DNA of 33,340 bases from a virus. Positions 3,534 through 33,340 of the stretch are shown here, one piece after another. Both the position numbers and the translations under genes were made by a program. A model generated the notes under the pieces. The model was given only the letters and a program-made list of their open reading frames with translations, had not been told where the DNA came from and did no database searches. Every line of letters starts with the position of its first letter. Position 1 is the first letter of the stretch. The stretch covers positions 1 to 33,340 of IMG/VR virus record IMGVR_UViG_3300036985_002839; one strand, given 5' to 3'.

Positions 3534-5447
3534 ATGACAATTCCTTCAGAGCAAACTCTAGCGCAATTAGAAAAATTATTTACAAAGTTCGGTCAGCTCT
3601 ACGTAGATGAAAATTTTAACTTTCAGTTTAAGGAAGGTGATGTGGCACATATTTTGCATCACAGAACTCTACGGTCAGTAAAGTCTATAACCGATCTTGC
3701 AGAGAAGTTGGGTTGGCTTGTGGGTTGGAAGAAAAGTCAATGGAGACTTACTAATACAGGACGTATGGAAGCTTACACTTGTAGAAGAAAAAAAGTGTCA
3801 TCAGATCCTAACGAGCCTAACCTATCAAAATTTTCTTTTAAAGAACGCGTTATGAATGAATTTAAACGTCAAAGCTTATTCGTGTGTGTAGACGAAGTTA
3901 GATATCTTAGAGATAATCCTATTCTCTACTCACTTTTACCTGAAGAAGTTGTTCAACAAATAAACTCACCACAAAAAGCAGATTATCCAACAAAATTCTA
4001 CACTCCAGATAGTAGACACTACAACAAATTTAAGGAACTTCAAGAAAGTAAACTAAACGAACTAACGCAACTTACTGAAGAATTTAACGGTTACGAGATT
4101 GAAAAGCAAAAACTACAAGAACAAAATACACCAGTCGCAGAATCCCAAGAAAAAACAAGCACTTCAGACCAAATCAAAGATCAAATTTTACCTAGCACAG
4201 AAATAAATAATAATAATTTACCCAAAGTCGCAGAATCCCAAGAAAAAACAAATACTTCGCCTGTTACCAAAACTTTTAGACGCAAACCAAAATCTTCTAC
4301 ACTTGCTAGTACACAACCCCAAGTACTAAACACTAATCCTTCAGTAAGTACTCCTATACAAACAGCGACAGGTCTGCCTGTCGCTGGGGGCGAAGCCCCA
4401 AGTACTGTGTCAGTACGTGATCCGGATCCGGATAAATTATTAAATAATAATTTATATTATATATATAAGCCTTCGGAAGAGATATATATTAATAATAAAT
4501 TATTAATATATATCTCTGATCCGAGATCTCCAGATCCGGATCCGGATCTTAATAAATTAATAAATAATATATATATTAATCCGGATCCGGAAAAGATCGC
4601 GTTGAGCGATTCCTGCAAAGCGAAAAACGAAATACAAAACCAAATCTTAACACACTCAGGCAACGAAATTTCAAAAACACAAATTCTTAACACACCAAAT
4701 CAAGTTAATAACACACCAAATCAAGTTAATAACACACCAAATCAAGTTAATAACACAGAAACACAAATTCTTAACACACCAAATCAAATTAATAACACAG
4801 AAGCACAAATTCTTAACACACCAAATCAAATTAATAACACAGAAGCACAAATTCTTAACACACCAAATCAAATTAATAAACAAACTCCTGAAAATCCAGA
4901 ATTATCAGAACGCATAAAAATATTACAAGTTGCATCAATTTACGATTCTTATTTAACTAAGTACACACATAACAGACACAAATTTACACCTACAAAATTT
5001 TTAGAACCAGGACAAAGAAAACATGCAATATTTCAACGAGTTATACAAAATGCCGAAAGTTTAAGTATTTCTTTTGACACGTACATGAAAGCCCAATTTT
5101 TTTACTTTGACAAATGGTTTTCGAGACCCCCGAAAGTACAAGAAATTGCAAGCTATACATCCAAAAATAACGCACTAGAAAGAGCAAAAGCTTTCTTATC
5201 AGAATCAGAGTTTGGGTTAGACCGTGCTGTGGTAGGGAAAGTAATACCACAACCAAAGGTATCTCAAAATAAACGCTTTGAGTTATCTATACGTGCACTG
5301 CAAAGCATTATGAAAAATTATAGTGCGTCTGAGGAGGAGGTGCTAGCACGCTTTGCCAAAGGCGCTACAGCGTTTTCTTACTTCGACAAGGAGTGGCTCT
5401 ATCAAAACCCAACATATCAGCGCCTACGTGAATCTGGAGTGGTTTGA
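3534..5447 (+). CDS. Putative replication initiator with embedded origin-like DNA
   Basis: A 637-residue protein just upstream of the DnaB-type helicase gene. Residues about 20-85 could be a winged-helix DNA-binding domain (HHRTLRSVKSITDLAEKLGW, then a WRLTNTGR wing). Residues about 190-450 are a low-complexity linker containing a twice-used VAESQEKT segment, a DPDPD-rich stretch and nine 7-residue units of the type NTPNQVN or NTETQIL. Residues about 455-637 are a helical, basic and aromatic C-terminal domain. DNA-binding head, disordered linker, second domain, origin-like DNA inside the gene and helicase next door match lambda O-type initiators. I do not recognise sequence homology, so initiator or helicase loader is inference. 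The DNA encoding the linker is described separately. Confidence 0.6.
   Translation: MTIPSEQTLAQLEKLFTKFGQLYVDENFNFQFKEGDVAHILHHRTLRSVKSITDLAEKLGWLVGWKKSQWRLTNTGRMEAYTCRRKKVSSDPNEPNLSKFSFKERVMNEFKRQSLFVCVDEVRYLRDNPILYSLLPEEVVQQINSPQKADYPTKFYTPDSRHYNKFKELQESKLNELTQLTEEFNGYEIEKQKLQEQNTPVAESQEKTSTSDQIKDQILPSTEINNNNLPKVAESQEKTNTSPVTKTFRRKPKSSTLASTQPQVLNTNPSVSTPIQTATGLPVAGGEAPSTVSVRDPDPDKLLNNNLYYIYKPSEEIYINNKLLIYISDPRSPDPDPDLNKLINNIYINPDPEKIALSDSCKAKNEIQNQILTHSGNEISKTQILNTPNQVNNTPNQVNNTPNQVNNTETQILNTPNQINNTEAQILNTPNQINNTEAQILNTPNQINKQTPENPELSERIKILQVASIYDSYLTKYTHNRHKFTPTKFLEPGQRKHAIFQRVIQNAESLSISFDTYMKAQFFYFDKWFSRPPKVQEIASYTSKNNALERAKAFLSESEFGLDRAVVGKVIPQPKVSQNKRFELSIRALQSIMKNYSASEEEVLARFAKGATAFSYFDKEWLYQNPTYQRLRESGVV
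4134..4251 (+). repeat. 25-base direct repeat pair
   Basis: The 25-base sequence beginning GTCGCAGAATCCCAAG is at 4134-4158 and again exactly at 4227-4251, encoding VAESQEKT twice in the linker of the putative initiator. The spacing is 93 bases. It marks the start of the repetitive section of the gene. Confidence 0.8.
4363..4416. repeat. Three consecutive hairpins, GC-rich
   Basis: Three inverted repeats follow one another with almost no gap. The first is CAGCGACAGG at 4363-4372 pairing with 4377-4386 around a TCTG loop. The second is GGGGC at 4387-4391 pairing with GCCCC at 4395-4399 around GAA. The third is GTACTG at 4402-4407 pairing with CAGTAC at 4411-4416. They are markedly more GC-rich than the rest of the gene and look inserted. 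They keep the reading frame open. Confidence 0.8.
4419..4598. other. Candidate replication origin core (AT-rich unwinding region with palindromes)
   Basis: Palindromes built on CCGGATCCGG occur three times: 4420-4433, 4532-4549 (18 bp, perfect) and 4580-4591. Between them lie AT-only tracts of 37 bases (4432-4468), 32 bases (4482-4513) and 32 bases (4549-4580). A near-perfect palindrome with 19-bp arms (4478-4496 and 4499-4517, two-base loop AA) fills the middle. Nine GATC sites fall in 4419-4598. AT-rich melting DNA bounded by protein-site-sized palindromes next to direct repeats is the usual layout of theta-type origins. Origin activity is inferred; in-frame insertion of palindromic mobile repeats is the main alternative. 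Confidence 0.55.
4689..4877 (+). repeat. Nine tandem 21-bp units (iteron-like)
   Basis: Nine uninterrupted 21-base units start at 4689, 4710, 4731, 4752, 4773, 4794, 4815, 4836 and 4857. Two variants are present: AACACACCAAATCAARTTAAT (six copies) and AACACAGAARCACAAATTCTT (three copies, alternating with the first in the second half). All start AACACA, and a partial unit precedes them. 21 bp equals two helical turns, so the common AACACA core falls on one face of the DNA, as in iterons bound by initiators. It also encodes 7-residue protein repeats. Confidence 0.85.
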
Positions 5448-5499
5448 CAACGTGTTTTGAGAGTGTATAGTGTTTCAGTTCCGAGTAGTCTAAAAATTT

Positions 5500-5518
5500 C
5501 CTAGTAACCTGCTATATA
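5500..5518 (+). promoter_or_regulatory. Conserved 19-bp motif, copy 1 (putative phage promoter)
   Basis: CCTAGTAACCTGCTATATA, preceded by AAAAATTT, lies 19 bases before the GTG start of the helicase gene. The same motif recurs at 30790, 31703 and 33046, each in front of a gene. It contains TGCTATATA, which resembles an extended -10 box, but no -35 box is visible. The CTATA segment would also suit a single-subunit phage RNA polymerase promoter. Confidence 0.6.
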
Positions 5519-5537
5519 CGCCAACAGGTGGTATGCC

Positions 5538-12326: not shown

Positions 12327-13973
12327 ATGCCAAAAGAATCTAGTATAAATTCTATACTAGATAATCTTCAAGAAGATCTAAATAAAGCATTTGGAGATGA
12401 CTCCGTAATGCGCTTAGATTCTCAGGAAGCATTATCTCGTGTAGACCATTGGGTGTCTACTAGGAGTATTATAGTAGATGCTGTGTTACGTGGAGGTAGA
12501 CCAGCTGGGTCGTCTCTTATGCCGTTTGGGAGACAAGTTGAAATATCGGGACCTAACGGTTGTTTAGACGGAAATACATTTATTCCGTATACTACACACA
12601 ATTCTAATGGAAAAAAAATTAATCATAAAGGTGGTACTATAGAGCACCTGTACAATATATTCAACAAAGGTAAGACAGGAGTTTATTACACCACCACGTG
12701 TATGAAGGATGATGGCTGTTTTTTTAACAACCGAATATCAGGTGTAGTGAAAACAGGAACTAAGACGTGTTTTGAGGTGACAACGATTACTGGTTACAAA
12801 ATAGAGGCTACAGAAGACCATAAATTTTGGGTAGGTACTCGATTTGTAAAACTAAAACATCTACAGGTAGGTGGTGTAGTTTATGTACACAATGGAACTA
12901 GTGTTCATCATCTGGACGAAGATACAACTAACGATGATGTAAATAACTTGGTAGTTATGTCCACAAGTGAGCACACTGCCTTACATTGTAAGGATAAGCC
13001 TAATAGTTTAAGGTATGTGGCGGTAGAGGATACTATTAAGTCTATAACGTGTGTAGGTGTGAAGTCTACTTATGATATTAAAATGGAATCTCCATTTAAT
13101 AATTATGTAGCCAATGGGTTTGTGGTACACAATAGCGGTAAGAGTACATTGTGTGCTCAAATCGCAGCAGAAACACAATCTAAAGGAGGAATTGTAATTA
13201 CAGTAGATACTGAAGAACGTATTGATACAGGGTATTGGACAAAGCTAGGTGTGGACGTAGGTACGATACTGCGTATACAAGCCGGTAGCGTGGATGATGT
13301 TTTTAATAAACAATACACGGCGTTAAATTTATTGAAAGCAAAAGCTCCAGATAAATTGGTTTTGATGGTGTGGGATTCATTAGGAGGCACACGTCCTATA
13401 GATATGGTGGACGATAAAGCAAAAGAAACTCCAATGGAGCAAGCAGAGAAGTTTGCTATGCGTCAAGCTAAACGAATTAGTCAAGGTATGGAGTTGATTA
13501 ACGGTGTAGTGGCGAGTACAAGAGCCTGTTATCTTTACACTAATCATGAATACACTAAAATGGGAGTTACGTACGGTAGTGCAAGAGAGACTAGAGGTGG
13601 AGAAAAACCGAGATATTTAGCTACGGTTAGGTTACAGTTAACCCCTATAGGACACATTTACGAAGAGGATTCAGTAACTGGACAAAAGCAGGTAATTGGT
13701 AATAAAGTACAAGTTAAAGCTCTAAAGAACTCGATGGCGGGGATTTTGATGACGCGGGAAGCTGTGGTTATGGCTAATAGAGGCTTTGTTAACGAATACG
13801 CTGTGTTTGATATTGCAACCAGGTTGGGTTTGATAACAAAGAGTGGTAGTTGGGCCAAGTTTAAGGGTGCAGAAAAAGAGTACAGTTTTCAAGGCTTTAA
13901 CGGGTTTATGGAGTCTGTTGTTCCTACTAAAGATTATGAATCGTTGTTTGCAGATGTTGTTTCTCAGTTATAA
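12327..13973 (+). CDS. RecA/UvsX-like recombinase precursor containing an intein
   Basis: The 548-residue precursor would splice to 357 residues. N-extein ends ISGPNG and C-extein starts SGKSTLCAQIA, so together they restore a RecA Walker A GPNGSGKS. Further RecA features are VITVDTEERID, Walker B LVLMVWDSLGG, and the ssDNA-binding L2-like area followed by ARETRGGEKPRYLATVRLQL. Known role: strand exchange on SSB-coated DNA. The intein breaks the P-loop, so unspliced protein should be inactive. ATG 12327 has no strong Shine-Dalgarno. Neighbours are SSB upstream and a small helical protein downstream, then the SbcCD genes, forming a recombination and repair block. Confidence 0.92.
   Translation: MPKESSINSILDNLQEDLNKAFGDDSVMRLDSQEALSRVDHWVSTRSIIVDAVLRGGRPAGSSLMPFGRQVEISGPNGCLDGNTFIPYTTHNSNGKKINHKGGTIEHLYNIFNKGKTGVYYTTTCMKDDGCFFNNRISGVVKTGTKTCFEVTTITGYKIEATEDHKFWVGTRFVKLKHLQVGGVVYVHNGTSVHHLDEDTTNDDVNNLVVMSTSEHTALHCKDKPNSLRYVAVEDTIKSITCVGVKSTYDIKMESPFNNYVANGFVVHNSGKSTLCAQIAAETQSKGGIVITVDTEERIDTGYWTKLGVDVGTILRIQAGSVDDVFNKQYTALNLLKAKAPDKLVLMVWDSLGGTRPIDMVDDKAKETPMEQAEKFAMRQAKRISQGMELINGVVASTRACYLYTNHEYTKMGVTYGSARETRGGEKPRYLATVRLQLTPIGHIYEEDSVTGQKQVIGNKVQVKALKNSMAGILMTREAVVMANRGFVNEYAVFDIATRLGLITKSGSWAKFKGAEKEYSFQGFNGFMESVVPTKDYESLFADVVSQL
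12561..13133 (+). other. Intein with HNH endonuclease in RecA P-loop
   Basis: This covers residues 79-269 of the precursor (191 residues). It starts with Cys in CLDGNTFIPY (block A). Block B is ATEDHKFWVG, with the conserved Thr and His. Block G is NGFVVHN, followed by Ser as the first C-extein residue. Between B and F is an HNH-type segment: HHLDEDTTNDDVNNLVVM then EHTALHC, with the HH, the Asn pair before Leu, and His residues at the end. It is a small intein with a minimal HNH domain. Splicing boundaries are clear from the restored Walker A. Confidence 0.92.
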
Positions 13974-14299: not shown

Positions 14300-14342
14300 A
14301 ATACCTGCATTATTTCATAAAAAATGGGATAATGCAGGTATT
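14300..14342 (+). terminator. 13-bp perfect hairpin between genes
   Basis: AATACCTGCATTA at 14300-14312 pairs perfectly with 14330-14342 around a 17-base loop. It ends 20 bases before the metallopeptidase ATG at 14363 and is followed by only three T residues in TTTG. It may terminate the SSB-RecA transcript or control translation of the next gene by structure. The U-tract is short, so termination is uncertain. Confidence 0.45.
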
Positions 14343-22948: not shown

Positions 22949-25870
22949 ATGTCTGATACTGTGGACTTTAAACCTAAAACTACACAAAGAAAACCTGTAC
23001 TATTGGAAGATAGTACAGGATCTACAATTACATCAGAAACTGTAATATCCGATACCGAAGAACGTAGAATTATTACTCCGGATGAGTATGATCTCATTCA
23101 ACCTCATCCTAATGCTTCTCCAGCGTTTTTGCAAGGGATTAGACCTTTAGATCCAGTAGAAGAGATGGCAAAATCTCCTATACGTGTGCAGGAGATGTTT
23201 AAGTCTAGTTTTGCATTGTGGTCTCAATTTTCTGGTGTGGAGGTAGACAATAGAGTATTTACGTTTGACGACCATCGTTATCTTCTTCCCATCTACATGT
23301 GTGAAGAAAAAGATGTGGTTTGGATTAAATCAGCACAGATGGGTGCAACCATTTATGAAGTATTGCGTCTTTTGTGGTTTTGTAGATATCATACCGTCAA
23401 GGTTGCGTTGTATTTTCCTACAGCTGACGGCGTTAATAAGATGTCTAAGGACCGACTTGGTCCCATTATTGCATCTAATCCACAGTTAAATAAAGCCTTA
23501 AAATCACAGGAGGATTCTCTTGGACTTAAACAAATTGAGAATATTCATGGTAAAAAGAGTTCTCTATACATGTTATACTTGGGTGGTACTGCGTCTAAAG
23601 ACTCTGTACCGTTGGATGTTCTTGGTTTTGATGAAGTACGGTTGGTAAAGCAAGATGACATAGACCAAGCTATAGAACGTGTTTCACATAGTACTTATAA
23701 ATATAAAATGTTCGTAAGTACTGCTGGTATGCCAAATTGTTTTGCCGGACACGTAAAGCTGTTGGTTCGTAATAAGAAAACTAAAGCTGTTACGAAGATT
23801 AGATTTGACGAACTAGTAGATCAATACAAGAAATACCAGATCTTATCCTACACTAACCGAGATGGTGGTAACCCTACTTGGAGCAATATACTAGCCGCGG
23901 TGTGTAGAGGTAAACGGAAGATGGTTAAAGTGACTTTATGGTCAGGTGACGAGATAGTTTGTACACCCGACCATAGATTTGTTGTAGGGAAGAATAACTT
24001 TGGTGGTTTTAAGTTTCAAGAAATAGGAAAAGTATCTGTTCAGTCATTGGGTGGGGATAATAAACAAGGCATATACTGTTCTAGCCTGTTGTCACCTGGT
24101 TTTGTGAAGAAAATTCACAAGGAAAAACCAAATCATTGGTCTGAGGAAACCTGTCGTGTTTTAGGTTTGTTTGTATCTAACGGAGTTTTGTTAAAGGAAT
24201 ATCCTGGTATCCATTTTTATTGTGATGGTGAAGAGTCTTCATACGTTAAAGACTGGGCTAAATCCAACAATATGTATGCTAAGACAACAGATACTGGTGT
24301 TGTCTTGTATTGTTCTCGTAAGTCCTACTACAAATTATTTACGGATTGTTTTTCAGAAGATACGTGGGAAAAGAAAATTCCCGATGAAATACTCAATTCC
24401 AGTCCAGGTCAATTAGAGAGGTTTCTAGAAGGGTTTTTTAGTACAGATGGTTATGGTTTTGGGCTAGACGATCCTTTATGCCAAAAATTTGACAATAAAG
24501 AGTTATTAGAACAAATTCGCTTTATGTGTCATAGGGTAGGTATTTCTACATCAGTAACTACCAATCCGAGTAAAACGTGTCATATTCTTCGTAGTCCATG
24601 GTGTGGTACGTTAACTAACTTCCCTTACCTTAACAAGATAGCTGTAAAATCTATTGAAGAGGTGGGTGACGAACTAGCCTACGATGTTCAGCTAGTTGGG
24701 GATCCTTGGTTCATGCTAGCTGACAGTGGCGCAGTTGTACACAATTCGGATATCCATAAACGATTCTTACACGGAACCCAATTAACATGGCATGTTAAGT
24801 GTGGTGGTTGTTTAGACGGGTTTGTTCCTTCAGATTGCTTTCCAGATTGTATTGTGAGTCACAACAACGAAGTATATTTACGTTGTCCGAAATGTAAGAC
24901 TCGTGTACATGATACGCAGAATGGTAATTATGTAGCACATAACCCAGGAGGTAGTTATCCTTCGTTCCATGTTAGTCAGTTTATTTCTAAGTTTATGACA
25001 GTTAAGGAGATTTGGGATTTCTATAACCAGACTACTAATAAGAAAGAGTTTTGGAATGCTAAGATGGGACGTCCGTATATTGATGAGGAGAACGTTCCTA
25101 TTACTGTTGATATCTTAGAGAACTGCATCAATCCTGATGTTAAGTGGCTTCTTAATGAAGAAAAAAAGACACGCAAGAATTGTGCCATGGGTGTTGATCA
25201 GCATGGTGGGAATGTTTATGTTACTATTTTGAAACGTGGACATGACGGTAAGCGTCAATTAGCTCATTTAGAGGTAGTTGAAGCTTCTAATCCTAGGTAT
25301 TGGCAAGACGGTAAACCCGTTTCTCCTTTTAGGCGCTTATACGAGCTGATGCGGGAGTTTGACGTGGGTATGTGTATCTGTGACCATATGCCAAACTATA
25401 ACGAAGCTGTGGAGTTTGCACACGCATTTCCTGCAAGAGTATTTTTGGCGTTTTATGGAGAAACACAAAAAGATGTTATAACGTGGATGGATAAACTTCG
25501 TATGAAGGAGTCCATTAAGCGCGGTAGTAAGGTAATTAAGTTGAAATGGCAGTGTACGTTAAATCGGTATGCGTCAATTGACTTGTCATTGTCCTGTTTT
25601 GGGAAGAGAGAAATTGACATACCACACCCAGATGCTTTAGTTCAAACTATAGAAAAAGACGGTAGGTTCGAAGTTCAGCCTGTGTGTAGAAGTAAGTTTT
25701 TTGAGCACTTGAAGTCTATTGTACGACAAAAAACTATAGTTGATGAGAAAACCGGAAGATTTAAGATGGAGTGGGTGTATTTAGGTAAAGACCCACACTT
25801 TGTCCATAGTTTTAATTATGCATTTTTTGCGTATGAACGCTTACGTCGTCAAGCTATTTTGATTATGTAA
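22949..25870 (+). CDS. terL: Terminase large subunit (GpA-type) precursor containing an intein
   Basis: A 973-residue precursor that would splice to 637 residues, close to the lambda gpA length. ATPase features: Walker A variant WIKSAQMGATI (about 125-135), Walker B LDVLGFDEV (D228, E229), and the coupling motif FVSTAGMPN (about 255-263), directly after which the intein is inserted. The C-extein holds a four-Cys zinc-like site (KCGGC and RCPKCK) and the nuclease domain start CAMGVDQHGGNVYV. The enzyme drives DNA packaging and cuts concatemers. The intein sits between ATPase and nuclease parts. It is followed by an HTH protein. Confidence 0.92.
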   Translation: MSDTVDFKPKTTQRKPVLLEDSTGSTITSETVISDTEERRIITPDEYDLIQPHPNASPAFLQGIRPLDPVEEMAKSPIRVQEMFKSSFALWSQFSGVEVDNRVFTFDDHRYLLPIYMCEEKDVVWIKSAQMGATIYEVLRLLWFCRYHTVKVALYFPTADGVNKMSKDRLGPIIASNPQLNKALKSQEDSLGLKQIENIHGKKSSLYMLYLGGTASKDSVPLDVLGFDEVRLVKQDDIDQAIERVSHSTYKYKMFVSTAGMPNCFAGHVKLLVRNKKTKAVTKIRFDELVDQYKKYQILSYTNRDGGNPTWSNILAAVCRGKRKMVKVTLWSGDEIVCTPDHRFVVGKNNFGGFKFQEIGKVSVQSLGGDNKQGIYCSSLLSPGFVKKIHKEKPNHWSEETCRVLGLFVSNGVLLKEYPGIHFYCDGEESSYVKDWAKSNNMYAKTTDTGVVLYCSRKSYYKLFTDCFSEDTWEKKIPDEILNSSPGQLERFLEGFFSTDGYGFGLDDPLCQKFDNKELLEQIRFMCHRVGISTSVTTNPSKTCHILRSPWCGTLTNFPYLNKIAVKSIEEVGDELAYDVQLVGDPWFMLADSGAVVHNSDIHKRFLHGTQLTWHVKCGGCLDGFVPSDCFPDCIVSHNNEVYLRCPKCKTRVHDTQNGNYVAHNPGGSYPSFHVSQFISKFMTVKEIWDFYNQTTNKKEFWNAKMGRPYIDEENVPITVDILENCINPDVKWLLNEEKKTRKNCAMGVDQHGGNVYVTILKRGHDGKRQLAHLEVVEASNPRYWQDGKPVSPFRRLYELMREFDVGMCICDHMPNYNEAVEFAHAFPARVFLAFYGETQKDVITWMDKLRMKESIKRGSKVIKLKWQCTLNRYASIDLSLSCFGKREIDIPHPDALVQTIEKDGRFEVQPVCRSKFFEHLKSIVRQKTIVDEKTGRFKMEWVYLGKDPHFVHSFNYAFFAYERLRRQAILIM
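23738..24745 (+). other. LAGLIDADG intein in terminase
   Basis: Residues 264-599 (336 residues). First residue Cys in CFAGHVKLLVR; block B is IVCTPDHRFVVG; block G ends SGAVVHN before Ser of the C-extein. The endonuclease has two LAGLIDADG helices: VLGLFVSNGVLL (near 405-415) and LERFLEGFFSTDGYG (near 490-503). The first has Asn where the catalytic acid normally is (SNG instead of DG), while the second keeps Asp. So splicing should work, but DNA cleavage may be weakened. The insertion point lies in the terminase coupling motif. Confidence 0.92.
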
Positions 25871-28203: not shown

Positions 28204-28440
28204 TTGAAAAACTTTGATAATCAATATGGTTTTGTTTGGGGACCTGCGCTAGTACAGCGTTGTATTTCTAATTGTGCAGACGGCAGAGAATGGGTTTATT
28301 TAACAATTAAGAGTATTAAATCAAATTCAAAACGTAAATTTAATGCATCTGAGATTGGAATATTAGTACATCCTGGTGGTTCTATTACCGTAGGTAAGCT
28401 AAAAGGTCGCGTTAAAGCGTGTGGATTTAAGAAAAAGTAA
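28204..28440 (+). CDS. Small basic hypothetical protein
   Basis: A 78-residue protein starting at TTG 28204, chosen because a strong AGGAGGT lies seven bases before it; the longer frame has no ribosome site. Sequence MKNFDNQYGFVWGPALVQRC continues to a basic C-terminus (KGRVKACGFKKK). The second half (FNASEIGILVHPGGSITVGK) looks like a small beta barrel. Not recognised. It ends two bases from the minus-strand terminator of the candidate small RNA. Confidence 0.6.
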   Translation: MKNFDNQYGFVWGPALVQRCISNCADGREWVYLTIKSIKSNSKRKFNASEIGILVHPGGSITVGKLKGRVKACGFKKK

Positions 28441-28480
28441 AAAAACACCCCTACAAGTAAACCCTAAACTTGTAGGGGTG
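28439..28480 (-). terminator. Intrinsic terminator for leftward transcription
   Basis: CACCCCTACAAGT at 28446-28458 pairs perfectly with 28468-28480 around a nine-base loop, a 13-bp stem. Read on the minus strand it is followed by seven T (28445-28439), a textbook rho-independent terminator. In plus direction there is no T-run. It would end transcription from the minus promoter at 28535-28563, and any leftward read-through from the phosphoesterase gene. Confidence 0.75.
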
Positions 28481-28528
28481 GACCTAAGTGTTTCTCGTAG
28501 AGATCCACGATATCTACGGTAGGTCTAA
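28439..28528 (-). ncRNA. Candidate small structured RNA, about 90 nt
   Basis: A minus-strand unit with no ORF. A promoter at 28535-28563 would start RNA near 28528. The RNA begins with an outer stem GACCTA (28525-28520) pairing with TAGGTC (28486-28481). Inside lies CGTAGA (28518-28513) pairing with TCTACG (28501-28496), extended after one mismatch by two pairs around a five-base loop. It ends in the terminator hairpin. The stem starts three bases after the predicted start. The family is not recognised; it is not a tRNA. Confidence 0.55.
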
Positions 28529-28534
28529 ATTAAC

Positions 28535-28563
28535 ATACTAGCTGATGTGGTATTTTTAGTCAA
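28535..28563 (-). promoter_or_regulatory. Minus-strand sigma70-type promoter of the small RNA
   Basis: On the minus strand, TTGACT (28563-28558), exactly 17 bases, then TAGTAT (28540-28535). Predicted start near 28528. Near-consensus spacing and -35. It points away from the plus-strand gene at 28583 and only the structured segment and its terminator lie downstream. Confidence 0.55.
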
Positions 28564-28582
28564 CAACTGATACACTTTTATT

Positions 28583-29308
28583 GTGGCAGATTTATCAGTC
28601 AAGACGATCGATCAGTTGACCGTAGGAACACTACTACGTGTGTACTTTCCGTCGTCAGCTAACTCTGCGTTAAAATCTTTCGTCCCTAGCCATCAGGGAT
28701 TATTTAGGATTCAGGATGGGGGAGAGAAGACTACACTAAACCACACTGATTGGCGCCGAATTGTTGGCGTTAATCGTAGAAGTTTTACTGCTTATGTCAT
28801 AGTTAATGACACAGTAAATCAACGGTTGTTGTTGGAATTTGAAGAAGCTGGAACTACTAACACAACACACAATCGTTATCAAATTGATGTTCCATACAGA
28901 GCATTTATGCGTTTGTCTAGACTTGTATCTAACGCGAGGGTAATGACTGCCAAGCAAGAAACTAGATACCGTAGACAACACCGTAGGACGCCAGTATACA
29001 AACAGTGTTGGAGTCCGTTTGATCAGTTTGTAGGTGTACAGATTATAGCTTATGCAAGGAGCGGTGACATGACCATTAGTTTCACTTATCAAATCCCAAG
29101 TACCGGTACTTCTTGGGTTATTCCATTACCGTCTGGTGCAGTTGAAGACGAGAGTTACAACGTAGTTGCGTCTTTCAATACTATTGTGGGGGTTCCCTCT
29201 CACATGTCAATTCCAGATGTTCAAAAAACTTCGACATCGTTTGTACTTAACTCAAGTGGTACACTTACATCAGGAACGACTATAGATTTTTTCGTAAAAG
29301 AAAGATAA
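28583..29308 (+). CDS. Probable virion structural protein
   Basis: A 241-residue protein, GTG start, without a clear Shine-Dalgarno. Residues 1-120 start VKTIDQLTVGTLLRVYFPSS, similar in layout to the second domain of the 2311-3003 protein. Residues 140-241 have strand-rich YQIPSTGTSWVIPLPSG and SGTLTSGTTIDFFVKER, the style of C-terminal beta domains in tail or baseplate proteins. I infer a virion component; a receptor-binding part is possible. It is isolated from the other structural genes, between amidase and phosphoesterase. Confidence 0.55.
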   Translation: MADLSVKTIDQLTVGTLLRVYFPSSANSALKSFVPSHQGLFRIQDGGEKTTLNHTDWRRIVGVNRRSFTAYVIVNDTVNQRLLLEFEEAGTTNTTHNRYQIDVPYRAFMRLSRLVSNARVMTAKQETRYRRQHRRTPVYKQCWSPFDQFVGVQIIAYARSGDMTISFTYQIPSTGTSWVIPLPSGAVEDESYNVVASFNTIVGVPSHMSIPDVQKTSTSFVLNSSGTLTSGTTIDFFVKER

Positions 29309-29361: not shown

Positions 29362-29550
29362 ATGTCAAAGATGATTGTTACTTTTTTTGTAACAGATATA
29401 CTAGAGTTAGAAGACATAGACGATGAGGTTCTGGTAGAGAATACTGTTGATAATTCCCACAAGCATCTTAAAGAGCTACTAAAGTCAGACTATAAAATTG
29501 CTGAAGCTGAAGTCGAGCTGATTGAAACGGAACCGGTTTATCTAAACTAG
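29362..29550 (+). CDS. Small acidic hypothetical protein
   Basis: A 62-residue, strongly acidic protein with an AAGGAG ribosome site eight bases before ATG. It starts MSKMIVTFFVTDILELEDID and looks like a small beta-alpha-beta unit. Not recognised. It ends one base before the end of the convergent phosphoesterase gene. Confidence 0.6.
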   Translation: MSKMIVTFFVTDILELEDIDDEVLVENTVDNSHKHLKELLKSDYKIAEAEVELIETEPVYLN

Positions 29551-29551
29551 T

Positions 29552-30682
29552 CTATTGTAGGTCTAGTTTTACGTCTAACCCGTAGTAGGGTTTGACTAGG
29601 GTGTTTAATGTTGAGTCAGTGTATTGCTGCTTTCCGACATTAATAAATCTTGTGTCACCTACAATAAAGTTTTCAACTGACTCAAACATCCATTGTCCGT
29701 TCTGTGTTGAGAAGTAACCGCTACTAATTGCATACGGATCTGGGGGGATTAGGCATCCGTTAGACATAAAGATAGGTCCAGATGGTAGGTGTACCATACT
29801 TGCAGTGTGTACGTGACCTACCATGAACAAATCACACTTTTTGTTAGACCCAGCGTTCCATTCATTTATCTGAGACCTAAGCTTGTTTATGTTTATAGAG
29901 CTTGAAGGGAATCCTGCGTTAATAACTGTGTCGCCATGTGTTGCAAATCCGTGTCGGTTAAACGCTGTATAAGTGTAGTATGGGGTGTAAGGGATTATGA
30001 TTTCTATGTTGGGTATGGAGACTAACGCCATTTTAATTGAGAACATGATCATAGTTTCGTACGAATCCCATTTTTCGTTAGTCGCTCGTTGATCGTGACG
30101 AATTTTTCGTCTACCGTGGTTTCCTGGTACGAAACGTACAATGACTTTTGGAAAAGTTCTAGCTAAGTGTGTTAGTGCCTGTATGAAGTAATAGACTACA
30201 GCACCAAACTGATTTGTTAGGTTAGCACCTGCACGAAGATCGTGTAGTTCTCCTAGGATTAAATCTCCTAGGATATGTACGTACAGTTCAGTTTCATCCC
30301 TATACTGAGTTTTGTAGTTTAATGTTTCTAGTACTACAGAAGCAAGTGCTCTAGATTCTTCTTTCGGACCAAATTGTGTGGGAACTTCTTTTTTATCTAA
30401 TAATGAATGGAAGTGTGTGTCACTTAAAACGAGGTTAAGTATTCTTTTTTTGTTTTTGTTCGTTTTCTTTTTGGAGTAGCCACAAATGGGAATAGTTAGT
30501 GATTTCGAGACGTTAGTTAGTATTTGTTTAAGATTTTCCTGAAATAAAGTTTCGCGAGCCATAACTCCTGTGATATGTCGATCTTGACGTTTTTTGTTTT
30601 TTTGGTATTCTAGGGCAGCTTGTTCTTTTAGGTAGTTGTTTAGATCTATATTCTGTTTTGAGTTCTGGAGAAGTTTGCTCAT
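29552..30682 (-). CDS. Calcineurin-like metallophosphoesterase
   Basis: A 376-residue protein, the only clear minus-strand gene. Metal-binding motifs: LVLSDTHFH, LGDLILGELHD, VPGNHGRR, THGDTVIN and VGHVHTAS, i.e. a complete metallophosphoesterase set. Residues 1-80 form a basic helical N-terminal part. Substrate could be DNA ends, nucleotides or a signalling phosphate; the family is broad. AAGGAAA precedes ATG (minus). It converges with the gene at 29362-29550 with one base between, and no terminator lies between them. It starts opposite the accessory gene at 30829, so the region 30683-30828 holds divergent control signals. Confidence 0.85.
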   Translation of the reverse strand: MSKLLQNSKQNIDLNNYLKEQAALEYQKNKKRQDRHITGVMARETLFQENLKQILTNVSKSLTIPICGYSKKKTNKNKKRILNLVLSDTHFHSLLDKKEVPTQFGPKEESRALASVVLETLNYKTQYRDETELYVHILGDLILGELHDLRAGANLTNQFGAVVYYFIQALTHLARTFPKVIVRFVPGNHGRRKIRHDQRATNEKWDSYETMIMFSIKMALVSIPNIEIIIPYTPYYTYTAFNRHGFATHGDTVINAGFPSSSININKLRSQINEWNAGSNKKCDLFMVGHVHTASMVHLPSGPIFMSNGCLIPPDPYAISSGYFSTQNGQWMFESVENFIVGDTRFINVGKQQYTDSTLNTLVKPYYGLDVKLDLQ

Positions 30683-30789
30683 AAATTTCCTTAAATTTCT
30701 CTAGAGTGTTTTACAACATCGACGGAGTTCGTTAACACTTACCCTATACAGTGCCTTGTTTTTCAGAAATTTTCAACCCCAAAATTTTT

Positions 30790-30808
30790 CCTAGTAACCT
30801 GCTATATA
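30790..30808 (+). promoter_or_regulatory. Conserved 19-bp motif, copy 2 (putative phage promoter)
   Basis: CCTAGTAACCTGCTATATA, with AAAATTTTT before it and AGAGGA plus ATG 20 bases after. Identical in core to the copies at 5500, 31703 and 33046. It lies in the 146-base gap (30683-30828) between divergent genes, which otherwise contains only AT-rich sequence and the minus-strand ribosome site. Confidence 0.6.
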
Positions 30809-30828
30809 CCCACAGAGGATAAACAACA

Positions 30829-31707
30829 ATGTGTGACTTTGTATCTGTTATTGCTAGTACAGAAGGTTCCCTACAACTCTACGCATCACCAGGTCTTAAG
30901 AGTCATGGGGATGCTAGAGTAGGTTGGAACATCGTAGGAGGTGCCGAGGTAGAATGGACAGGGGAACATCATGAATCACTTACTGTAAGACACGAAGACA
31001 AAGATATTAAAGATACTGTACTACAAATGATTAAGGATAAGTATCCTACACGTACAGATCTTATCAATTCTATTACTGAAACAAGAGGCTTAAATAATAG
31101 TAAGCTATACTACAAGAACGGTAGTGTAGTATATTGCAAAGAGACACACGGACCTAAGTACAAAGAAGTAGAGAAACTACTTCAAGATCTACCTAACTTT
31201 CCTTGGTTTAAACCTGTAGAAAAGTTAGACAAAGAGAATATTGTTGCACTAGTACAAGAACATATTCATGTATTAGGTAAGTACGGATATACAGAGAAAG
31301 ACATATCTGTAAAGTTTGTGTATACTTGGGAAGAATACTACGCTGCTAGTGATGCTGTTTCTATTGATGCTGCTGGGAATGCTGCTAGGAATTCTGCTAG
31401 GAATGCTGCTTGGGATGCTTCTAGGAATGCTGCTTGGGATGCTGCTTGGGATGCTGCTAGTGATGTTGCTTGGAATGCTGCTAGGAATGCTGTTTCTATT
31501 GATACTGTTAGGAATGGTGGTAGGGGTGCTGTTTGGGATGCTATTTGGGCCGTTGCTAGTGATGTTGCTTGGAATGCCGCTTGTCTTGTAGCTGACGTGG
31601 ATAACCCGTTGTCTTCTCTTGTAGAGATTTATAGACTAGGGTGTGCACCTATAGGAATTGTAGGGAAAGAGTTTGTTGTATGTATTCCTCCTACCCAGAA
31701 TCCTTAG
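30829..31707 (+). CDS. Accessory protein with Ala-rich tetrapeptide repeats
   Basis: A 292-residue protein, MCDFVSVIASTEGSLQLYAS at the start. Residues 1-165 are a mixed alpha/beta domain; residues 171-250 are a run of 4-residue units of the type AAxN/AAxD, including AARN, AAWD and AASD, which should form a long repetitive helix or solenoid; residues 255-292 return to a normal fold (LVEIYRLGCAPIGIVG). A second copy of the N-terminal domain starts at 33084. Not recognised. Conserved motif 21 bases upstream and a standard ribosome site indicate its own control. A host-takeover or regulatory role is only a guess. Confidence 0.7.
   Translation: MCDFVSVIASTEGSLQLYASPGLKSHGDARVGWNIVGGAEVEWTGEHHESLTVRHEDKDIKDTVLQMIKDKYPTRTDLINSITETRGLNNSKLYYKNGSVVYCKETHGPKYKEVEKLLQDLPNFPWFKPVEKLDKENIVALVQEHIHVLGKYGYTEKDISVKFVYTWEEYYAASDAVSIDAAGNAARNSARNAAWDASRNAAWDAAWDAASDVAWNAARNAVSIDTVRNGGRGAVWDAIWAVASDVAWNAACLVADVDNPLSSLVEIYRLGCAPIGIVGKEFVVCIPPTQNP
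31340..31580 (+). repeat. 12-bp tandem repeat array inside accessory gene
   Basis: Units like GCTGCTAGGAAT and GCTGCTTGGGAT recur every 12 bases about 18-20 times with variation, encoding AARN/AAWD units. Clean copies are at 31368-31500; later ones diverge. Such arrays expand and contract by slippage. Confidence 0.75.
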
Positions 31708-31721
31708 TAACCTGCTATATT
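31703..31721 (+). promoter_or_regulatory. Conserved 19-bp motif, copy 3 (putative phage promoter)
   Basis: CTTAGTAACCTGCTATATT overlaps the TAG of the preceding gene (31705-31707) and ends 11 bases before the transglycosylase ATG. The spacing is shorter than at the other copies, and the upstream A/T tract is weaker. The leader would be very short if RNA starts just after the motif. Confidence 0.55.
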
Positions 31722-31732
31722 TCGTAGAAATT

Positions 31733-33034: not shown

Positions 33035-33045
33035 CCAAAAAATTT

Positions 33046-33064
33046 CTTAGTAACCTGCTATATA
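33046..33064 (+). promoter_or_regulatory. Conserved 19-bp motif, copy 4 (putative phage promoter)
   Basis: CTTAGTAACCTGCTATATA with AAAAAATTT before it, 19 bases before ATG 33084. Downstream sequence to the ATG is almost identical to copy 2, because the gene behind it is a duplicate. Confidence 0.6.
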
Positions 33065-33083
33065 CCCACAGAGGTAAACAACA

Positions 33084-33340
33084 ATGTGTGACTTTGTATC
33101 TGTTATTGCTAGTACAGAAGGTTCCCTACAACTCTATGCAGCACCTGGACTTAAGTCTCACGGAGATGCTAGGGCAGGCTGGATTATCATAGATTGTGCC
33201 GAGGTAGAATGGACAGGGGAACACCACGGAACACTTACGGTAAGACACGAAGACAAAGGTATTAAAGATACTGTACTACAAATGATAAAGGATAAGTATC
33301 CTACACGTACAGATCTTATTAACAGTATTACAGAGACTAG
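33084..33340 (+). CDS. Paralog of the 30829 accessory protein (3' partial)
   Basis: The frame runs off the window end; 85 residues are visible. It starts MCDFVSVIASTEGSLQLYAA and matches the N-terminal domain of the 30829 product almost residue for residue, with a few changes (AGWIIIDCAEVEW against VGWNIVGGAEVEW). A recent duplication including the promoter motif and ribosome site is clear. Whether the copy also has the Ala-rich repeat part cannot be seen. Confidence 0.8.
   Translation, partial: MCDFVSVIASTEGSLQLYAAPGLKSHGDARAGWIIIDCAEVEWTGEHHGTLTVRHEDKGIKDTVLQMIKDKYPTRTDLINSITET

Follow-up and report, generated by a model that had tools for sequence, protein, structure and literature searches.

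Phage lambda makes a leftward RNA, called OOP, which has its own terminator and lies opposite rightward genes. This RNA is antisense to cII and overlaps part of the coding region. OOP RNA is 77 nt long, is transcribed from the pO promoter, and acts in cis (PMC12197685). The antisense RNAs of phage P22 include sar, which is 68/69 nt in length (PMC12197685, PMC13397905). For virulent phages, a 2016 paper named the band C and D RNAs of T4 as the only earlier examples of small RNAs (PMC4933390). The virulent phage PAK_P3 produces small RNAs from intergenic regions, along with many antisense RNAs, most of the latter in the structural region (PMC4933390). In PAK_P4, the endolysin gene is the target of one such RNA (PMC12197685).

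Here, we consider a minus-strand element that, in a preliminary description, was proposed to be a compact small RNA unit of a type not known in phages. The claim of novelty was too strong, since lambda OOP, P22 sar, and the PAK_P3 RNAs are precedents (PMC12197685, PMC13397905, PMC4933390). The window, by which we mean the whole 33,340 nt stretch of DNA analysed, is IMG/VR record IMGVR_UViG_3300036985_002839 (positions 1 to 33,340). It comes from an uncultured phage. All clear genes in the window are on the plus strand, except for a single phosphoesterase/exonuclease gene (29552-30682; PHROG 284), which is the only clear minus-strand gene nearby. The element is located in a gap (28441-28582) between two plus-strand genes. 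Upstream is a 78-aa gene (28204-28440), with a strong Shine-Dalgarno (SD) sequence and no match in Pfam and PHROG comparisons. Downstream is a 241-aa gene (28583-29308), referred to below as gene 28583. The start of this gene is conserved among three phages (the window and two relatives) and, in the window, it has no SD sequence. Our best reading, to which we give something approaching an even chance, is that the gap encodes a phage-specific minus-strand small RNA. Its likeliest role would be as a cis-antisense regulator of the gene 28583 leader, comparable to OOP and sar.

The gap contains the strongest intrinsic terminator in the 33-kb fragment, and this is far beyond chance expectation. As first described, a perfect 13 bp hairpin (28480-28446 on the minus strand; 7 G-C pairs, 9-nt loop, -22.6 kcal/mol) is followed by exactly seven T, read directly at positions 28445-28439. 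The corresponding run of seven U completes the terminator, and its last two bases fall within the 78-aa gene's stop codon. No other hairpin in the window has at least 12 bp with at least 6 of 8 T behind it, and none with at least 12 bp was found in 20 shuffled windows. Even a weaker class (at least 8 bp, with 6 of 8 T) occurs only 0.1 times per shuffled window. Note that the U run is 3' of the hairpin on the minus strand only; the plus strand continues as GACCUAAG. A plus-strand terminator was ruled out because the U run is absent on that side. An intrinsic terminator would generate a short discrete RNA, and this feature of the OOP and sar type is present here. For Hfq-binding small RNAs, seven U is the stated minimum, hairpins are moderate, and stronger hairpins shorten the U tail (PMC5558911). 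The U7 tract of the candidate reaches the length stated for such RNAs, which are of the SgrS and RyhB type. However, the candidate hairpin is strong, and plain termination accounts for it no less well than Hfq binding would.

The candidate promoter is on the same strand, at 28563-28535. As stated in the preliminary description, and as read directly from the sequence, a -35-like hexamer (TTGACT, 28563-28558) is separated by 17 nt from a -10-like hexamer (TAGTAT, 28540-28535). Together, these match the consensus at 9 of 12 positions, although the -10 hexamer is weak, at 4 of 6. Counted by consensus, promoters are not in excess: the window has 35, compared with 38.9 expected from shuffles, and a second count gave 54 compared with 59.4. 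We also scored sites with an approximate sigma-70 weight matrix. On this approximate scale, the candidate ranks 24 of 66,608 positions, is by far the top-scoring site in its gap, and belongs to a class expected about 0.03 times per 90 nt, whether whole-window or intergenic composition is used. By the same approximate measure, the gaps of this phage contain 6 sites of that score, compared with 1.25 in shuffles. Such enrichment in gaps suggests that the phage probably uses sigma-70-like promoters. Looser composite units, in which a promoter is combined with a terminator, number two in the window and 0.27 in shuffles. Overall, the candidate is a moderate promoter-like site.

It is quite possible, if somewhat doubtful, that only the terminator matters. 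If so, it would stop leftward transcripts that originate from the phosphoesterase gene, or from a second promoter-like site (29368-29339, minus strand), and the promoter hexamers and upstream stem would be incidental. The function would be to prevent such transcription from entering the late genes on the plus strand (amidase, dNMP kinase, and TerL). Consistent with this, the phosphoesterase gene is the sole minus-strand gene nearby, and its transcript would read into the hairpin at 28480-28446. This is the first strong minus-strand terminator downstream, with no other between the phosphoesterase end (29552) and 28480. The second promoter-like site, TTGACA-18-TAGTAT, around the gap after gene 28583, is also high-scoring and has the same -10 hexamer as the candidate promoter. 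A transcript from this site would be antisense to gene 28583 and would stop at the same terminator. That promoter counts by consensus are at the chance level also fits. However, the terminator is 1.07 kb past the phosphoesterase stop codon, beyond two plus-strand genes, which is far for the gene's own terminator. Furthermore, a promoter-like site would be found this near upstream by chance in only about 3% of cases. The two explanations, a small RNA and a terminator acting alone, are close, and they are not mutually exclusive. The promoter-like site close by and the layout favour the former; the latter has the advantage of requiring the terminator alone. Were the terminator all there is, it would mark a boundary that excludes leftward transcription from late genes, which is ordinary.

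If, instead, a small RNA is made, we infer both its transcription and its start position from the sequence. With a start 7 nt past the -10 hexamer, and an end at the last U, the predicted minus-strand RNA would span 28528-28439 and be about 90 nt long. Between the -10 hexamer and the terminator hairpin are about 55 nt that bear inverted repeats. The preliminary description placed the first stem three bases after the start. This agrees with our coordinates; a start at 28528 puts GACCUA at 28525. We also agree that the unit has no open reading frame, since none of at least 40 aa is found on the minus strand inside it, and no coding alternative was found on that strand. Across the whole window, Rfam release 15 gave no match at the gathering cut-off, and a search for tRNA and tmRNA genes returned none. 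When the region was searched with a lax Rfam threshold, the best hit was the L10 leader, with 23.3 bits where 44 are needed. Since no minus-strand gene lies beyond the terminator, a minus-strand riboswitch, attenuator, or leader is excluded by position. A ribozyme was dropped as no known core was recognised by eye. We also dropped the idea of -1 frameshifting, or of bypass, where the 78-aa gene ends in an A-rich stretch; chance can account for an open minus-one frame of about 28 codons.

Upstream of the terminator is a structured element (28525-28481 on the minus strand), for which two nested stems had been proposed. The outer stem, GACCUA/UAGGUC (28525-28520/28486-28481), stands, with a pairing probability of at least 0.92 in the predicted minus-strand fold, and it forms on either strand. 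The inner stem, CGUAGA/UCUACG (28518-28513/28501-28496), does not stand as the main minus-strand form. It is predicted to be populated in only about 9% of minus-strand RNA because an alternative, UCGUGG/CUACGA (28510-28505/28500-28495), is favoured. Over 49 nt, the favoured minus-strand fold has a free energy of -14.6 kcal/mol, compared with -12.7 kcal/mol for the form described earlier, including a 3-bp extension. Conversely, on the plus strand, the minimum-energy fold consists of the two stems as described (-16.0 kcal/mol for the same 49 nt, and -17.1 kcal/mol for 53 nt). The layout fits the proposal of a self-contained promoter, structure, and terminator, while the inner stem as described is a minor form in the minus-strand RNA. 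The full RNA (28436-28528) folds with -37.2 kcal/mol and a z score of -5.1, mainly because of the terminator, which accounts for -22.6 kcal/mol alone. The upstream 49 nt, taken alone, are mildly unusual (z of -2.3, with 4 of 200 shuffles equally stable), and about 1% of 46-nt windows on the minus strand, and 2% on the plus strand, fold as well.

These results bear on a further possibility, which we consider improbable. The structure might act in plus-strand mRNA, as an element for RNase cleavage or stability, or as a regulatory leader of gene 28583. The plus-strand minimum-energy fold, with both stems directly beside the 13-bp hairpin, favours this, as does the lack of an SD sequence for gene 28583 despite its conserved start. 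However, SD sequences are weak in about a quarter of the genes of this phage, so their absence is not distinctive. The run of T behind the hairpin also serves the minus strand only. Finally, inverted repeats fold on both strands, and hence a difference of about 1-2 kcal/mol tells little. The stems are present as inverted repeats in DNA, and a single sequence does not reveal the strand on which they act.

We now return to a minus-strand small RNA and its possible role. Like OOP, the candidate would be a leftward phage transcript of small size, encoded opposite rightward genes, with a promoter and terminator of its own, though here these are predicted from sequence. No sequence relationship between the two was found. 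While the overlap of OOP extends to part of the coding region of cII, the candidate touches just the last two bases of the 78-aa gene stop codon. It does not overlap the coding region or ribosome-binding site of a target. The sar RNA, too, is small, structured, and antisense, and is transcribed from a promoter of its own (PMC12197685, PMC13397905); the predicted candidate would be similar in these respects. However, sar pairs with the ant mRNA and hinders translation initiation, whereas the 5' end of the candidate would be 55 nt upstream of the gene 28583 start codon, leaving the start uncovered. The PAK_P3 RNAs differ from the candidate: all antisense RNAs but one are within genes, the small ones have a mean length of 176 nt, and they were seen by RNA-seq, whereas the candidate is predicted only. 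The preliminary description called the unit antisense to nothing but the gap. This is correct for coding sequence. However, should the gene 28583 leader be transcribed from upstream, the RNA would be complementary to it over its whole length, and so a cis-antisense role is the natural inference. In this scheme, a sigma-70-like promoter would drive production of the non-coding RNA of about 90 nt, consisting of the upstream stem-loop and then the very strong intrinsic terminator. The RNA could pair with the gene 28583 leader as plus-strand late transcription crosses the gap. Pairing could then alter folding of the leader, its stability, or its cleavage by a double-strand RNase. Taken on its own, this cis-antisense role is unlikely at best. 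As for action in trans, no convincing target was found among the 38 gene starts in the window, the best z score being -2.6.

To find relatives of the locus, we used several searches. By DNA similarity in the phage collection, a 600-base query had no match and a 141-base query gave chance matches only. Scans of viral contigs with single proteins (the 241-aa protein, amidase, TerL, and phosphoesterase) returned nothing. We then built two alignments of terminase large subunits, one with distant phages and a second with the closer phages that had been found. The first alignment gave distant relatives, all without this neighbourhood. The second identified relatives with TerL up to 65% identical. 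Their common gene run comprises DNA polymerase, RecA, SbcC/D-like, RNase H, TerL, an HTH protein, a zinc-finger protein, and dNMP kinase, although not every gene is present in every relative. Two relatives encode orthologues of gene 28583, namely L135 (with the orthologue 44% identical) and the 171-kb contig behind L136. In L135, the GTG start of the orthologue overlaps the 3' end of a 116-aa gene. In the 171-kb contig, the open frame of the orthologue overlaps an HNH-type gene. Neither has an intergenic gap at this place, and neither has a comparable hairpin or RNA-like element.

A covariance search over related phages had been suggested as a check on the stems. With a model of the 45-nt structured part, run over the contigs of the relatives, only the window's own copy was credible, and none of the related phages found has the element. 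It follows that neither conservation nor compensatory change is available as support. A 21-bit match in Myxococcus phage Mx1 was rejected, as it is inside an annotated CDS and aligns poorly. Separately, a scan for the stem pattern gave 20 chance-like matches, at loci that encode no close relative of any window gene. One of these (L130) has a weak, 26%, phosphoesterase match. The locus with the most similar hairpin (L127) was discarded because the bulge is absent.

Like the element, the 78-aa gene and the phosphoesterase gene are missing from the relatives found. For the phosphoesterase, this is what would be expected if gene and terminator were acquired together, and so is consistent with the terminator acting alone. 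In place of the amidase, the 78-aa gene, and the gap, L135 has an unrelated 117-aa gene, a different predicted lysis enzyme, and the 116-aa gene. The segment that comprises the amidase, the 78-aa gene, and the gap therefore resembles a replacement peculiar to this phage, and the candidate RNA unit would be specific to this phage within the collections searched. This specificity of the gap is also what a junction scar would give, left by exchange of the lysis module and with a functionless chance hairpin; we give this only a very slight chance, as a perfect 13-bp hairpin with 7 G-C pairs and an exact U7 tract was not reached in shuffled windows. The chance is slim, too, for the most ambitious form of the small RNA proposal, namely a new minus-strand regulatory RNA with a defined fold that controls the leader of a gene conserved in relatives, though without an SD sequence in the window, and that arrived along with the amidase and phosphoesterase genes nearby.

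Overall, several observations point to a small RNA: a terminator beyond chance, a high-scoring promoter-like site nearby, enrichment of such sites in the gaps of this phage, an outer stem that is near-certain in the predicted fold, no minus-strand gene following, and precedents in phages. Counting against it are the lack of promoter excess by consensus, the weak -10 hexamer, absence in relatives, an upstream fold that is only mildly unusual, the slightly more stable plus-strand fold, and the lack of a convincing trans target. In addition, leftward transcription, whether from the phosphoesterase gene or from the site at 29368, accounts for the terminator just as well. If made, the RNA would add to the few small RNAs known from virulent phages, and would do so from a poorly sampled phage group. 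It would also sit where the leader of gene 28583, which is conserved in relatives, could be acted on.

Several other features of the relatives and the window were recorded. Four different contigs (L089, L090, L091, and L092) in a single Myxococcales MAG (nzgw250) encode TerL proteins that share 42-44% identity with that of the window, in each case with a helicase relative just upstream. These look like several related phages binned in one MAG. Among related phages, large arrays of tRNA genes are present in L136 (14769-21646, 22 genes) and L010 (7408-9903, 15 genes, on a partial contig); L134, L135, and the window have none.

The window has another minus-strand unit at 23111-22994, within the 5' portion of the TerL gene, in which a promoter-like site precedes a 10-bp hairpin and a T-rich tail. 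This unit is weaker than that at 28563-28439 and is possibly due to chance. At 14300-14342 (plus strand), a hairpin with as many as 19 consecutive pairs occupies the short gap before gene 14342 and reaches its TTG start; the stem has a low GC content and no long U run behind. Intein-like insertions are apparent in TerL (22949-25870) and a RecA-like protein (12327-13973), both on the plus strand. They match the Pfam intein splicing domain and a LAGLIDADG or HNH-like domain, with weaker matches below the cut-off. The TerL insertion is absent from the TerL of most relatives.

Repeats are present too. A 20-23 bp motif, CYTAGTAACCTGCTATATAC, is found at 5497-5519, 30787-30809, 33043-33065, and 31700-31722. 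All copies are on the plus strand, shortly upstream of a gene start; three are near-identical and one is degenerate. The motif is absent from the relatives and from the other viral contigs searched, and looks like a phage-specific promoter or operator. A 266-nt plus-strand repeat, 88% identical between its copies (30820-31085 and 33075-33340), duplicates the start of gene 30829. Both copies have the CYTAGTAACCTGCTATATAC motif upstream, and the second runs off the window end. Lastly, there are plus-strand coding repeat arrays in gene 3534 (4651-4923, with a 21-nt unit) and gene 30829 (31318-31595, with a 12-nt unit), the latter rich in Ala, Trp, Asp, and Asn.
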